DNA of 64,000 nucleotides, taken from the NCBI GenBank assembly GCA_018396995.1, contig JAGTQB010000006.1:1-64000 (forward strand), in the 5' to 3' direction. Source of the DNA: Candidatus Bathyarchaeota archaeon. Its GTDB lineage: Archaea; Thermoproteota; Bathyarchaeia; Bathyarchaeales; DTEX01. This document shows positions 35,406-58,409 of this stretch, piece by piece. Both the position numbers and the translations under genes were made by a program. The notes beneath the pieces are model-generated. The model did not search any database and was not told the DNA's origin. It worked only from the letters and a program-made list of their open reading frames with translations. Within the stretch, counting starts at the first letter, position 1. Each line of letters opens with the position of its first letter.

Positions 35406-36845
35406 CTATATTATTGGCGTAAGCTTCGGCAGCACATAACCCCTTGATACATCCATCTCAAGCACATAGAAATTTGTTCTAGGCTTTATGCCACAAACAA
35501 GAATTGAACCATGCTTCCTCATGACACTTAAATGAATATCTGCAAGTGCGCCGAGGATCTTCGCCAATCTTGGATAACCTGGCTTTAGTATAAATATGCT
35601 AAGGCCATTTGTCTCCCTCACTCTCGTAGCACAATCCCTGAGAAATGAAACCGTCCTTTTAACACCGTATATGTCTACAAGCGTATCTACACCAACTATA
35701 CTTAGTACTGGCTGGCCAGTTTTCTCCATGAGCTCCTCTTCAGCCCTTATATACCTTGCATAGTCGTCTAATATATCTTCGCCCTTAAACGTTACAATAT
35801 AGAGCTCAGGTTTTAGACCATGATACTCCTTAACGCATATTCTCAGGAGCCTGTTTATCTCGTCTCTAGTTATACCCCCATCCTCAAACCACCTTACTAT
35901 AAGGTTATGGTCTACCCCCCTTGAGGGTATGCCGATCACACCCCTACCCTGGACGAGGAAATTATGGTCTGTTGGGGTTACGAGCAGGTGGCAGTGGAAT
36001 GATGAAATATGCTCATCTATTTCTAGAAGGACTGTTGAGCCTCTTTGATATCCTCCCCCGAGCATCTTATCTAGATCTGGTGAGCCCGTTGAGAAGCATC
36101 TTTCAGTGTCTGGCTGCGGCTCAAACCTGCGTGGCCTCACAGTATACTCAACCTTAAATTGCGGGAATACTCTAAAACCATCTTTAAGCGTGAATACGAA
36201 GCATGGTTCAGGTATGGGCACCCCCCTCATCTTAAGTATCTCCAGCTCCCTCATGAGTCTATCTTTAAGTTTAGTCCTCTTAAGGTGAATTATGCTGTCC
36301 GCAACAAACTCCTCTACGCCCATCCCTATCATCTCTTCGCCCCATGGAACCTCCAACACTAGGATCGTTGTGCATCCCAGAAACCTTATGATCTTGCTTA
36401 GAACAGCGTGTAGAACGATTCTGGCTTCATGTGCGTTTCTAAATGCTTGGGCTAGTGCGGAAAAGGAATCTATTACTAAGCGCTTAGCCCCGGTAGCTTC
36501 TACTTCCCTAACTATTGTCTCCATCACCGCTGGAGCAGCTTCCTCCCTCGCTGTAACCATGTCTAGGAAATAGAAGCTTCCTGCCCTCTCTAGCTCCTCA
36601 AAGTTGAAGCCGAGAGCCCGCATATTACTGAAGAAAGTCTCCCTATTTTCGGCGAAGCTAACGTATATACCTTTCTCATCATAGTTAACTATACCATTAT
36701 AGAGGAAGGTTGCCGAAAAGATCGTCTTTCCCGTTCCGGGGTTTCCCGCCACTACTATTAGGCTACCCTGCTGAAAGCCCCCGCCAATAACCTCGTCTAA
36801 GCCATTTATTCCGCTTGGAACCCTATTAATGTAGCTGTTCATCAC
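35406..36845 (-). CDS. RAD55/KaiC-like (GvpD-like) ATPase with degenerate second domain
   Basis: This 479-residue protein is two RecA-like domains in tandem. The first has Walker A GNPGTGKTIF near residue 33 and Walker B RLVIDS. The second (from residue ~245, STGSPDLDKMLGGGYQRG) keeps the fold entry sequence but has no P-loop GKT. The layout resembles archaeal GvpD-type and KaiC-family regulators. One domain therefore binds ATP and the other is probably regulatory or structural. It overlaps the upstream small gene by 20 bp, so the two are coupled. Confidence 0.85.
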   Translation of the reverse strand: MMNSYINRVPSGINGLDEVIGGGFQQGSLIVVAGNPGTGKTIFSATFLYNGIVNYDEKGIYVSFAENRETFFSNMRALGFNFEELERAGSFYFLDMVTAREEAAPAVMETIVREVEATGAKRLVIDSFSALAQAFRNAHEARIVLHAVLSKIIRFLGCTTILVLEVPWGEEMIGMGVEEFVADSIIHLKRTKLKDRLMRELEILKMRGVPIPEPCFVFTLKDGFRVFPQFKVEYTVRPRRFEPQPDTERCFSTGSPDLDKMLGGGYQRGSTVLLEIDEHISSFHCHLLVTPTDHNFLVQGRGVIGIPSRGVDHNLIVRWFEDGGITRDEINRLLRICVKEYHGLKPELYIVTFKGEDILDDYARYIRAEEELMEKTGQPVLSIVGVDTLVDIYGVKRTVSFLRDCATRVRETNGLSIFILKPGYPRLAKILGALADIHLSVMRKHGSILVCGIKPRTNFYVLEMDVSRGYVLPKLTPII

Positions 36846-50213: not shown

Positions 50214-50290
50214 GTCAAAAATTCAATACTCCCTCAAGCAACTTTTAAATCTACGTTTAAAGGAAATAAAATATTGTGTGAGTGTATCTA

Positions 50291-50911
50291 ATGAGTGCTA
50301 TGAACTTCAAGAGCAAGCTATTTTCGCTTCTGGCTAAGGAGTTTGAGTCCTTCATCCCACAATTTAAACCATACACCACAGATTATCAAATGGTTGCCTA
50401 CGCTTTAAAGGACTTAGAAAACTGGCTAAAGGTTAAGATGGGAATTGATGACAATAAGTTGATTTACAGAAGAATTGAGGAAATCTATGAAAAGAGCCCA
50501 AGGGAATTTAAGGCTTCTCTAAACTTCTGGGCTGATATGTGGTTTAGGAAGTGGCGGGAGCGCGTTAGAATCCTTTCAACGAAGCTTGAGGAGCCGAAAG
50601 AGCACATTGAAAGGATTAAAAGGGCTAGGAAAATATTGCAGGAAGTAGATTGGAGAGAAGAGCTTAGAAGAATTGTCATCAAGAAGCTCATGGAGTGCGG
50701 TGAGATATGTATGACTGAATTTATAGCCGATAACTTAATATTAGAGGAGATTGCAAGGCGCCTACAAAAAACCAGGGAGGGCATCATGGCATTAGACCCG
50801 TTAAGCATATATAATGCAGTTAATGCAAGAATCACGAGATTGTCAAGGGAGAAGGGACCACTGGTATATTTAAATATAAAGCCAGGTCTATTCCAGCACT
50901 ACAATTATTAG
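50291..50911 (+). CDS. hypothetical helical protein upstream of a KaiC-like ATPase
   Basis: This ~206-residue protein is largely alpha-helical and charged, with features like FWADMWFRKWRERVRILS and DLENWLKVKMG. I recognise no family. ATG 50291 is preferred; GTG 50282 and ATG 50300 are also in frame. The KaiC-like gene starts 38 bp after its stop on the same strand, so it may encode a partner. Confidence 0.6.
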   Translation: MSAMNFKSKLFSLLAKEFESFIPQFKPYTTDYQMVAYALKDLENWLKVKMGIDDNKLIYRRIEEIYEKSPREFKASLNFWADMWFRKWRERVRILSTKLEEPKEHIERIKRARKILQEVDWREELRRIVIKKLMECGEICMTEFIADNLILEEIARRLQKTREGIMALDPLSIYNAVNARITRLSREKGPLVYLNIKPGLFQHYNY

Positions 50912-50948: not shown

Positions 50949-51740
50949 ATGTATATTGAGCGATTGTCAACTGGTGTTCCAGAGTTAGATGCTATGCTTG
51001 AGGGTGGAATACCGAAGGGCTTCATGGTGGCGGTCACTGGTGAGCCTGGAACCGGGAAGACAATACTCTGCCTACACTTCATCGCTCAGGGCGTTATTGA
51101 GAGAGATAAATGCATTTATGTCACAACAGAGGAGAGTAGGGAATCAATTATTACGCAGGCAGCCCAGTTTGGTTTCGACTTCTCAAGCGGCATCTCTGAG
51201 AAGAAAATGATTATAATTGACGCCTTAATGGGGCGCCAAGACGAATGGTCACTCCAGAGCTTAGATGTTGAGGAGCTTATGAATAAAATTATTGAAGCTA
51301 AAAAGACTCTAGGTCATGGAAGAGCACGCCTAGTAATAGACTCTTTATCGGCATTCTGGCTTGATAAGCCGGCAATGGCGAGGAGATACTCATACTTCGT
51401 GAAGAAGGTTCTTGCAAAGTGGGACTTCACGATAATGGCAACATCACAATACGCTATAACAACTTCAGAGGCATTCGGCTGGGGCATTGAGCACATAGCT
51501 GATGGGATAATAAGGTTTCGGAGATTTGTTAGGAATGGCTTTCTGAGGCGCTATATCTTAATTGAGAAAATGCGGCAAACAAACCACAGCCTACAGCTAC
51601 ATGAGATAATAATTCTACCCGGCAAGGGACTGACAATAGTAGGCCCGGTGGAAATGAGGAAGGAGGATATAGCGCTACCTAAACACATAATGGAAAGAAT
51701 TCAGAGGAGTATGGAGAGAAAGGAGACCGAGATACCATAG
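50949..51740 (+). CDS. KaiC/RadA-like RecA-superfamily ATPase
   Basis: The 263-residue single-domain ATPase shows STGVPELDAMLEGGIPKG, Walker A GEPGTGKTI near residue 30, an ESRESIITQ region and Walker B RLVIDSLSAFW. These single KaiC domains are frequent in archaea and act as regulators, kinases or sensors. It lies between the unknown helical protein and the hydrolase on the same strand. Confidence 0.92.
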   Translation: MYIERLSTGVPELDAMLEGGIPKGFMVAVTGEPGTGKTILCLHFIAQGVIERDKCIYVTTEESRESIITQAAQFGFDFSSGISEKKMIIIDALMGRQDEWSLQSLDVEELMNKIIEAKKTLGHGRARLVIDSLSAFWLDKPAMARRYSYFVKKVLAKWDFTIMATSQYAITTSEAFGWGIEHIADGIIRFRRFVRNGFLRRYILIEKMRQTNHSLQLHEIIILPGKGLTIVGPVEMRKEDIALPKHIMERIQRSMERKETEIP

Positions 51741-51821: not shown

Positions 51822-52568
51822 TTGACTTCATTGGAGCATTACCCTGTTGAATTTTACGTCGGCTCTCAAAGGATCCGCGGGAACCTACATCTACCATATA
51901 CCGGAGCGCCATGCATAGTCATATTGCATGGTCTAGAGGGAAATAAGGATTCTAATAAATGGCTTTTTGTTACCTCAAGGCTCGTAAGTAGGGGCTATGC
52001 ATGCCTGAGATTCAATTTTAGGGGGTGTGGGGAGGGGTCAGAGAAGAGCGATGGTTCATTTGATGATACATCCTTAACTAGTAGGATTGAAGATTATAGG
52101 GCTGCACTCAAATTCCTACGAGAATCTAGAAAAATTGATGCCGAGAAAATCGGCGTCATAGGCTCTAGTTTCGGTGGAATGACCGCAATAGCGGCTCAAG
52201 AGAGGGTGAGGGCACTCGTCACCCTCTCAACACCGTATATGATCAAGAACTTAGGTGAGATAAAGATCACTTATGGCGAGCATACATATTATATTCTTCC
52301 CTCGGGAAGAAGGTTAAAAGAGACTTTTTATGAGGATCTGAAGAAATATAATTTGCTTGAAGCTGTGAGGAATGCCCCTCCGATTTTAATTATACATGGC
52401 AGTGCAGACGATCTTGCCCCAGTGGATCATGCATTGAGACTCTTTGAATTGGCTCCTGAGCCGAAGGGGATCGAAATAATAGAAGGGGCAGATCATTTCC
52501 TAACAAAACCAGAGCACCTTGAGAGAGCAGTAAACCTAGCCATAGAATGGTTTAAAAAGCATCTTTAA
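51822..52568 (+). CDS. alpha/beta hydrolase
   Basis: This 248-residue protein has the nucleophile elbow GSSFGGMTA (G-x-S-x-G), a HGLEGNKDS oxyanion-side region, an acid in HGSADDLAPVDHA and His in GADHFL. It is a general esterase or peptidase-like enzyme. The TTG start follows GGGG. Two CCCCTAAAT direct repeats in the upstream 80 bp might be part of its promoter. Confidence 0.9.
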   Translation: MTSLEHYPVEFYVGSQRIRGNLHLPYTGAPCIVILHGLEGNKDSNKWLFVTSRLVSRGYACLRFNFRGCGEGSEKSDGSFDDTSLTSRIEDYRAALKFLRESRKIDAEKIGVIGSSFGGMTAIAAQERVRALVTLSTPYMIKNLGEIKITYGEHTYYILPSGRRLKETFYEDLKKYNLLEAVRNAPPILIIHGSADDLAPVDHALRLFELAPEPKGIEIIEGADHFLTKPEHLERAVNLAIEWFKKHL

Positions 52569-52636: not shown

Positions 52637-53524
52637 GTGGCTGGTAGCGAATTCATGAATAAAGTTGATTCCATAAGCATTATGTGCAAACACTACTCAC
52701 GTAGTGATGTCCAGAAAGAGATAATTGATTTCTGTAGGGGTAGGTGGATTGCAATACATTACTTAGGCCCCTCCGGAAACCTCGTTTTAAGGAGATATAT
52801 TTCAGGAAAACCAATTAAGGTGGAAAGTACAGAAGACTTAAAAAAATTGTGTAGGCGCATGAGATCAATTTATGCTACAGCAAACGTTTACAGGAGAATT
52901 GAGGGTTTATTTGACCTTAATGATCAGAGAAACGTAATTTATTGTACCCCCACATGGGACATTGACGGAAACTTATCGTCGTGGACCACCACTATCCGTG
53001 TCGCAAGGAAAATTGTTGAATTCTTATTTGATTGGGGAGTCAAGGAATCACTCTATGTTAAGTGGTCTGGAAATGGATGCCACATACACTTACATGAGAG
53101 AGGCATCTCAGAGGGTCTCCTAGAAAAATACAGTCCACTAGATATAGGATACGCTATAGTTGAATATGTGAATACAAAAGTATCCCATGACCTCATTGAA
53201 TTATCTATTGCAGGCGAGATAAAGGTGGAGAATAAAATGGATCCGGCAAGAATCTTCACATGTCCACTAAGCCTACATAGGGAGCTTGATGTAGTATGTA
53301 TATGCATGAAACCAGAAGATTTAGAGAATTTTTCCCCTAGCTGGATTAACACCGAAGATTTTAGGCATGATCCAAGCTGGCGTGAATTTAAGGAGGGGGA
53401 GGTTGATAAGCTTGCAGAAGCAGCCTATAAAGCGGTAGGTGGATACCCACTTAAACCTAAGAGAGGAAGGCGGAAGGCAAAGCCGCTGGATAGGCAAATA
53501 ATGGAGTGGTTACAGAGGGATTGA
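52637..53524 (+). CDS. stand-alone archaeo-eukaryotic primase (AEP)-like protein
   Basis: The 295-residue protein has the AEP motifs: DxD in TPTWDIDG (D108, D110), SGNGCHIHL (S144-H149, the SGxGxH signature), and RIFTCPLSLHRELD (compare PriS RLPGSLHGKTG) near residue 215. The catalytic core is therefore complete. It has no zinc-binding knuckle typical of PriS and ends in a basic tail. It might prime, repair or fill gaps in DNA. Neighbouring genes give no role. It is not the housekeeping PriS by look. Confidence 0.82.
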   Translation: MAGSEFMNKVDSISIMCKHYSRSDVQKEIIDFCRGRWIAIHYLGPSGNLVLRRYISGKPIKVESTEDLKKLCRRMRSIYATANVYRRIEGLFDLNDQRNVIYCTPTWDIDGNLSSWTTTIRVARKIVEFLFDWGVKESLYVKWSGNGCHIHLHERGISEGLLEKYSPLDIGYAIVEYVNTKVSHDLIELSIAGEIKVENKMDPARIFTCPLSLHRELDVVCICMKPEDLENFSPSWINTEDFRHDPSWREFKEGEVDKLAEAAYKAVGGYPLKPKRGRRKAKPLDRQIMEWLQRD

Positions 53525-56885: not shown

Positions 56886-58409
56886 ATGTCTGAGAATGAA
56901 GATAACCTTAGGAGAGCAGTATCTCTGATTATTGGAGCTGGTTATCAAATTGACAAGGAGGCCTTCGACTCCTTAAGAGTCTTAGCTAACAATGTTGATA
57001 TCGACTCTCTTATTAGGGGCATATTTGAGGAGGTTGAAGCTCTTTCTGAGAAGCCGCTATATATAACTCGTAGAATTATAGAGGAGGCTGCCAGAAAAAG
57101 CTCAAAAAAAGAGACTAAAGCATCATACGAAGTTAGTGGGAAAACTTATTTTAAGCCCTACGCAAAAGATATTGAGTCTGACTTTAAAGTTATAAGTGAT
57201 CCAACAGATAAAATAAGTGCTACTGGATCTCTCTCTGACTGCATAGAATATTTTAGGAGCCGATTTAAAAAGATAAGTAGAATATTAAGGAGCCGGGTGG
57301 ATGTAAGAGATGCTGGCTCTATAGCTGATGCCTTAAAAGCTCCCGAAAACTCTGAAGTGAAATTTACCTGCATTATTATGGATAAGCGTGAAACAAGACG
57401 TGGAATTTTCTTTAGGGTAGAAGATTTGGAGAGTCAAGCAACGGCTTTCGTTCCAGCGGAGGGCCGTGAGGTTTATGCAAAAGCTCAGAGGATACTCTTA
57501 GACCAAGTCATTTGCATGGTTGCTATGAGGGGGAGGGAAGATCTATTTATAGTGAAAGATATAGTGTTTCCGGATGTGCCTATGAAGAAGCCAAATAAGT
57601 CCCCTACACCTATTTACGCGGCACTTTTATCAGATCTACATATTGGAAGCAAGATGTTTATGATGAAGGAGTTTAATTGCTTCATAAAATGGTTGAGGGG
57701 AGAAGTTGGCAATAGTCGCCTCAGAGAAATAGCCAGCTACATAAAATATTTAGTGATAGCTGGCGACATCGTTGATGGCGTAGGCATATATCCACAACAA
57801 TATGACGAGCTTGAGATCAAGGACCTTTATAAACAATATGAAGTTGCAGCAGATCTTCTCAGCGGAGTTCCAGAATATATTGAAATAATTATTATACCTG
57901 GAAACCACGATGCAACTAGGAGAGCTCTACCCCAACCAGCCATTTCTAAGGACTATGCTGAACCCCTCTATGAGTTGGGGAGAGTTCATATGCTGGGCGA
58001 TCCATCGGTTATAAGCCTGCATAATGTAGTTTTCCTCTTGACTCATGGAAGAAGTCTAGACGATATTATAGCAGCCGTCCCAAACATGAGCTTCCAATCG
58101 CCGGATGATGCTATGAAAGTTCTCTTACAATGCAGGCACTTGGCACCAACCTACGGTATGAGAACTATGATAGCTCCTGAGAGAGAGGATCATTTGGTTA
58201 TAGAGCATGTTCCAGACATATTCCATGCAGGGCACGTACATCTAATGAAGTATAGCACATATAAAGGGATTCTTGTGGTTAATTCGGGGGCATTCCAGAA
58301 GCAGACGGAGTATCAAAGGGAGATGGGGCATATACCGAACCCCGGCATAATTCCAATAGTAGACCTACATACTTTAGAGGTCATTCCAATAGATTTCACT
58401 TCCATTTAA
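56886..58409 (+). CDS. polB: DNA polymerase D small subunit DP1
   Basis: The 507-residue protein has an N-terminal helical domain, an OB-fold (~150-235) and a calcineurin-like phosphoesterase domain. The five metal motifs are all intact: SDLHIGS, GDIVDG, PGNHDAT, LTHGRS and GHVHLMKY. It is the proofreading nuclease of the archaeal PolD holoenzyme. The DP2 gene starts 5 kb downstream and orc1/cdc6 is convergent next to it, which marks a replication region. Confidence 0.97.
   Translation: MSENEDNLRRAVSLIIGAGYQIDKEAFDSLRVLANNVDIDSLIRGIFEEVEALSEKPLYITRRIIEEAARKSSKKETKASYEVSGKTYFKPYAKDIESDFKVISDPTDKISATGSLSDCIEYFRSRFKKISRILRSRVDVRDAGSIADALKAPENSEVKFTCIIMDKRETRRGIFFRVEDLESQATAFVPAEGREVYAKAQRILLDQVICMVAMRGREDLFIVKDIVFPDVPMKKPNKSPTPIYAALLSDLHIGSKMFMMKEFNCFIKWLRGEVGNSRLREIASYIKYLVIAGDIVDGVGIYPQQYDELEIKDLYKQYEVAADLLSGVPEYIEIIIIPGNHDATRRALPQPAISKDYAEPLYELGRVHMLGDPSVISLHNVVFLLTHGRSLDDIIAAVPNMSFQSPDDAMKVLLQCRHLAPTYGMRTMIAPEREDHLVIEHVPDIFHAGHVHLMKYSTYKGILVVNSGAFQKQTEYQREMGHIPNPGIIPIVDLHTLEVIPIDFTSI

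Follow-up and report, generated by a model that had tools for sequence, protein, structure and literature searches.

Many archaea have no Y-family polymerase, which raises the question of how DNA lesions are passed in them; the candidate put forward so far is the replicative primase (PMC4538821). The locus described here bears on this question through a primase-like gene at 52637–53524 of the window (the whole stretch of 64,000 nucleotides analysed, contig C39 of a 1.46-Mb archaeal assembly that is 98.5% complete), which a reading made from the sequence alone had taken for an orphan AEP primase-like protein, possibly a PrimPol-like or repair primase specific to its lineage. What would such a protein do in this genome, and with which partner?

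The AEP gene and its predicted fold

An open reading frame was found where the sequence-only reading had placed one, and 52637–53524 (+) is a real gene coding for a short-form AEP-like protein of 295 aa. Its start is uncertain, with GTG 52637 and the in-frame ATG 52655 and ATG 52682 as candidates, and homologues start some 5–10 aa ahead of a conserved HYS. The features of the gene and the evidence for each are as follows.

52637–53524, + strand: predicted AEP-fold primase-polymerase-like protein, short form, 295 aa (homologues, conserved motifs, AlphaFold2, Foldseek)
52955–52966, + strand: AEP motif I, W-D108-I-D110, metal-binding DxD (conservation; aligned with PriS DID)
53060–53098, + strand: AEP motif II, K142-W-S-G-N-G-C-H149-I-H-L-H-E, that is KWSGNGCHIHLHE (conservation; aligned with PriS SGHRGYH)
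53240–53281, + strand: AEP motif III, D202-PA-R205-IFTCPLSLH214-R, that is DPARIFTCPLSLHR, with the third catalytic Asp and SLH (conservation, PriS alignment)
53453–53485, + strand: basic linker KPKRGRRKAKP, of low model confidence (AlphaFold2 model, sequence)
53486–53521, + strand: C-terminal helix LDRQIMEWLQRD, candidate partner-binding tail (AlphaFold2 model, sequence)

Searches of the protein against Pfam, NCBIfam and PDB sequences returned no match even at E = 10, so that its AEP identity is given away by the motifs alone (WDID, KWSGNGCHIHLHE and DPARIFTCPLSLHRELD); the PHROG and PADLOC models likewise left it unrecognised. These motifs are not a matter of chance, since across 94 distinct homologues, roughly 38–72% identical to the window protein, D108, S144/G145/G147/H149, D202, R205 and H214 are each kept in 94/94 and D110 in 93/94. 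The DxD, SGxGxH and PLSLHRELD motifs had been described beforehand as complete, and this holds, but the last of them, then called C-terminal, is AEP motif III, situated some two-thirds of the way into the protein. Judged by these residues, the AEP is apparently active and would be catalytically competent. The linker and helix, KPKRGRRKAKP-LDRQIMEWLQRD, are candidates for DNA and partner contacts, and a strict D-x-Q-[IVL]-x-x-[aromatic/L]-L pattern is found in the C-terminal helix of 27 of 53 short forms. Past motif III lies a C-x-C pair, C221/C223 (window 53297–53305), the two cysteines of which are kept in 70/94 and 81/94 homologues.

An AlphaFold2 model built on a 22-sequence alignment (pLDDT 89.7, pTM 0.84) predicts that the protein has the fold of the AEP superfamily, as had been claimed. 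Foldseek against the PDB ranks Mycobacterium Prim-PolC, a gap-repair enzyme, at the top (E 7e-8, probability 1.00, TM ~0.6), followed by the end-joining LigD-Pol, by Methanocella NHEJ Pol, by PriS of human and archaeal origin and by CAPP, so that the structure comparison with PriS and PrimPol proposed earlier puts Prim-PolC ahead of PriS. The viral fold library gave distant phage and virus AEPs only. Profile–profile alignment with 31 PriS sequences pairs DID with DID, SGNGCHIH with SGHRGYHI, and MDPARIFTCPLSLH with VDVHRLIRLPGTLH, at a score of 33.5; in 40 controls with shuffled columns the score is 17.0 ± 3.0 (24.7 at most), and the aRadC profile, likewise a control, gives 17.6. The PriS model PF01896 finds no match on the window AEP at E ≤ 10, the true PriS of the genome scoring 1.4e-11; three long-form paralogues are picked up by it, at E 1e-4 to 9e-4. 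The window AEP has no Cys cluster between motifs I and II, that is, no zinc-binding Cys stem of the kind present in the PriS of the same genome (L001).

Other primase-like genes and spread of the family

Canonical PriL (PF04104, 4e-33) and PriS (PF01896, 1e-11) adjoin each other on contig C23, which answers the genome check called for by the sequence-only reading: both genuine subunits are there, so the window AEP is not the housekeeping subunit. A 185-aa open reading frame after this pair looks, by sequence, like a GINS subunit. The genome further holds a long-form paralogue of the window AEP of about 500 aa on contig C17 (L033:7148–8644), whose conserved C-terminal extension includes GRFQVMGLLQAARYYLLTGD..AKSFGLNRAIFYAWAKR; Pfam gave no further domain, the hits listed in the PDB fold search covered the AEP domain and not the extension, and its gene neighbours were not constant. 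Contig C10 encodes a fourth protein, small and PriS-like (L002:1309–2109; 266 aa, PF01896 5e-9) beside an apparent S-adenosylhomocysteine hydrolase; it keeps DID and SGRGFHIH, and its third catalytic Asp is, by eye, replaced (SGGMRLIRLPYSLHG). Similar matches are common in Bathyarchaeia. Within the window, a DNA polymerase D small subunit (NF003118) lies at 56886–58409, 3.4 kb downstream of the AEP, and a KaiC-like protein of about 480 aa, one of some 10 KaiC-type matches in the genome, at 35406–36845 (−).

The AEP family was found in 51 of 257 genomes of the class and in 140 of 398 genomes of the phylum. Carriers include Bathyarchaeia, Methanomethylicia, Brockarchaeota, Caldarchaeales/Nitrososphaeria, Thermofilum and other Thermoproteia and, among Asgard archaea, Baldr-, Njord- and Odinarchaeota, so that homologues span several archaeal phyla and the idea of a protein specific to this lineage falls; homologues of 60–72% identity among named genomes come mostly from Bathyarchaeota MAGs. 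A maximum-likelihood tree splits the short forms (about 285–317 aa, including the window protein) from the long forms (about 390–620 aa, with C-terminal extensions of two kinds) at branch support 98/91, the contig-cut row L124, labelled short, being placed in the long clade.

The aRadC neighbour

The AEP gene is preceded on the + strand by three further genes, in the order 209-aa protein, aRadC, alpha/beta hydrolase.

50282–50911, + strand: 209-aa protein upstream of aRadC in the genus, no Pfam hit, in near relatives only (7 loci; loci read)
50949–51740, + strand: RecA-superfamily ATPase assigned as aRadC/Sso2452 orthologue, TIGR03881 KaiC_arch_4 (profile, PDB 2w0m, conserved neighbour)
51822–52568, + strand: alpha/beta hydrolase between aRadC and AEP (loci read)

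With 371 bits against TIGR03881 (cut-off 247.8) and E 5e-99 against the Sso2452/aRadC structure 2w0m, the 50949–51740 product is, on these matches, an orthologue of Sulfolobus Sso2452/aRadC, and its Walker A motif is intact (GEPGTGKT). Hence the statement that neither PriL nor a helicase adjoins the AEP is literally true but passes over a RecA-superfamily ATPase two genes upstream. The intervening hydrolase occurs at this place, among the loci read, only in the window and in the close relative G008 (74% identical).

In the neighbourhoods read, 29 of 41 short-form loci have aRadC as the next gene upstream, on the strand of the AEP, versus 0 of 37 long-form loci, and in 17 of the 41 the two genes overlap by exactly 4 bp; at one additional locus (L099) it is adjacent yet divergent, and at some short-form loci it is non-adjacent. 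Among the 61 nearest genomes, TIGR03881 scores over cut-off in exactly the 20 with a short form (Fisher 2e-16), a count in which G025, carrying a disrupted, divergent short-like copy, is left out as short form. In the phylum sample of 398 genomes TIGR03881 is present in 62 of 63 short-form genomes, tallied by hand from the rows listed, versus 199 of 398 overall, the exception being G025. The AEP is therefore no orphan, having a conserved partner by both counts. Two Bathyarchaeota (L144, L145) carry a short-form AEP without adjacent aRadC, and in one of these (L145:4930–5470) the AEP follows a protein resembling, by eye, TATA-binding protein. At G126:C4:43657–45273 (L308) an intact aRadC is followed by an AEP copy broken by several in-frame stops: here the AEP decays and aRadC is kept.

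The converse dependence does not hold. The Thermoproteia read have aRadC without a short-form AEP beside it, and Sulfolobus acidocaldarius, in the control set, is over the TIGR03881 cut-off; that TIGR03881 proteins are always accompanied by a short-form AEP is thereby rejected, and the presence of aRadC without the AEP in Thermoproteia such as Sulfolobus means that aRadC does not need the AEP for its role. The aRadC C-terminal tail was considered as a sign of AEP coupling and rejected, coupled and uncoupled tails being alike. Reviews describe Sso2452 as binding ssDNA more tightly than RadA and as inhibiting D-loops even with preformed RadA filaments (PMC8708640), and as one of the candidate interactors of ssDNA-SSB (PMC10003305); they describe RadC proteins as ADP-bound hexamer rings with DNA-stimulated ATPase and as important to S. 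islandicus in DNA repair (PMC4080772).

Complementarity with Y-family polymerases

The family is distributed in a manner opposite to that of Y-family polymerases (PF00817). Of the 14 genomes in which reverse gyrase, a mark of hyperthermophily, exceeds its cut-off, 13 carry the short form, and thermophily was considered as cause of the anti-correlation. Y-family polymerases are present in 0 of 25 family-positive versus 30 of 36 family-negative Bathyarchaeia (Fisher p 1e-11) and, in the reverse-gyrase-negative stratum, in 0 of 12 versus 30 of 35 (p 1e-7), p-values that overstate the evidence because the tests ignore shared ancestry and both traits are clade-structured; the direction is consistent. 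As the exclusion persists without reverse gyrase, thermophily as its cause is rejected. Phylum-wide, the AEP family and a Y-family polymerase occur together in 15 genomes where 62 are expected, so the exclusion is not absolute. Ku was found in 7 of the Bathyarchaeia examined, none of them family-positive.

Proposed role and alternatives

Since the short-form AEP gene is hardly ever found apart from that of aRadC, a recombination-control protein beside which it stands in many uncultured archaea, and turns up preferentially in genomes without the customary bypass polymerase, it probably encodes a damage-tolerance enzyme and not the normal primase of the cell. The combination of a zinc-stem-free AEP, an ssDNA-binding RadA paralogue and Y-family complementarity is best explained by a Prim-Pol for DNA-damage tolerance that works with aRadC at ssDNA, to which we assign a probability of roughly 0.55 and for which we infer activity, interaction and bypass role from the analysis above. 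The AEP would extend or fill DNA at lesions, gaps or recombination intermediates, by translesion synthesis or gap filling and possibly by repriming, and would take the place held by Y-family polymerases in relatives. For its part aRadC may hold or mark ssDNA, directing or controlling the AEP there, and may keep RadA from strand invasion while the AEP passes the lesion or fills the gap. The suggestion of a PrimPol-like or repair role made from the sequence thus agrees with the best reading of the fold, the separate PriS–PriL, the aRadC partner and the Y-family anti-correlation.

The ranking of folds also brings up a break-repair (end-joining) polymerase, which would bridge microhomologies and fill in at double-strand breaks while aRadC holds or shields the resected ends. 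Its closest folds being Prim-PolC, LigD-Pol and Methanocella NHEJ Pol speaks for this, as do the primase-promoted, Ku-independent MMEJ performed by Sulfolobus PriSL (PMC12019639) and the ssDNA binding of its partner aRadC, as described for the orthologue Sso2452 (PMC8708640). We nevertheless consider end joining unlikely, with no ligase or phosphoesterase gene recognised beside the AEP, with Ku absent from all family-positive genomes tested (on which ground Ku-dependent NHEJ was rejected), and with a Y-family anti-correlation that favours bypass over joining. An AEP fold with all three acids could also serve a PrimPol-like repriming primase that lays new primers ahead of stalled forks instead of extending through lesions. 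Eukaryotic PrimPol reprimes in this way, aRadC could keep RadA off the gap, and other AEPs prime without a zinc stem. Repriming as the main activity nonetheless strikes us as distinctly improbable for a protein without the zinc-binding stem, which human PrimPol needs for primer initiation (PMC4027207).

Far more doubtful are two readings that would take the protein out of repair. The PriS-like motif III could suggest that the protein is the primase subunit of normal replication, or a redundant back-up of it, but the adjacent PriL and PriS on C23 refute a housekeeping PriS, and PF01896 matches occur in 92 of 101 relatives, with or without this AEP family, which leaves this reading with hardly any credit. 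Capture in the chromosome of a replication primase from a mobile element or virus draws on the many stand-alone AEPs that belong to such elements (PMC5862659); it was rejected, and is extremely unlikely, as searches of viral contigs, phages, plasmids, PHROGs and PADLOC yielded nothing that matched and near relatives share the chromosomal neighbourhood. A defence system was also discarded, the PADLOC search having given one chance match and no family beyond.

Returning to the damage-tolerance Prim-Pol, a bypass polymerase with a RecA-family partner has precedents in Pol V–RecA and PolB2–iRadA (PMC11791011), and in the 29 short-form loci with upstream aRadC a polymerase gene and a RecA-family gene are linked. 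Tentatively, these might represent a third kind of mutasome, in which the AEP with aRadC as obligatory cofactor would replace Y-family polymerases across large uncultured archaeal lineages; if true, this would tell what aRadC, a protein of disputed role in Sulfolobus, does, and a third polymerase superfamily would join those with bypass polymerases under RecA-family control. A dedicated AEP that is linked to a RadA paralogue and complementary to Y-family polymerases makes the lesion-bypass question directly testable. The AEP superfamily and aRadC are already known, and none of the model libraries searched covers this AEP family; arCOG or the full NCBI protein databases may well contain it as a cluster of hypothetical proteins. 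Neither the AEP–aRadC pairing nor the Y-family complementarity turned up as a published description in our search of the open literature, and the Asgard primase paper does not use the terms searched for the family.

Comparison with known systems

The best structural matches are Prim-PolC (5op0, 6sa0, 6sa1), LigD-Pol (2irx, 2fao) and Methanocella NHEJ Pol (5dmu). Like Prim-PolC and LigD-Pol the window AEP is about 300 aa long and has an AEP core without the PriS zinc stem; unlike them, at about 11–14% identity, it has no ligase or Ku neighbour and no NCBIfam or Pfam match. With archaeal PriS (PF01896; 1g71, 1zt2, 9f28) it shares three alignable motifs, including D-x-x-R and S/TLH, but it stays below the Pfam cut-off and has neither zinc stem nor adjoining PriL, the true PriS lying elsewhere. 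PrimPol-PV1 and other mobile-element AEPs (PMC5862659) are, as is the window AEP, stand-alone members of the superfamily, whereas the window AEP is chromosomal, with no mobile-element link found and no PriCT or helicase fusion. Sulfolobus aRadC/Sso2452 (2w0m) is matched by its orthologue as the conserved neighbour in the window, and has no adjoining short-form AEP in the Thermoproteia read. In comparison with PolB2–iRadA, the polymerase here is an AEP, and the Walker A motif of aRadC is intact whereas iRadA is inactive; what the locus has in common with the PolB2–iRadA–PPB2 and Pol V–RecA mutasomes is a candidate bypass polymerase linked to a RecA/RadA-family protein.
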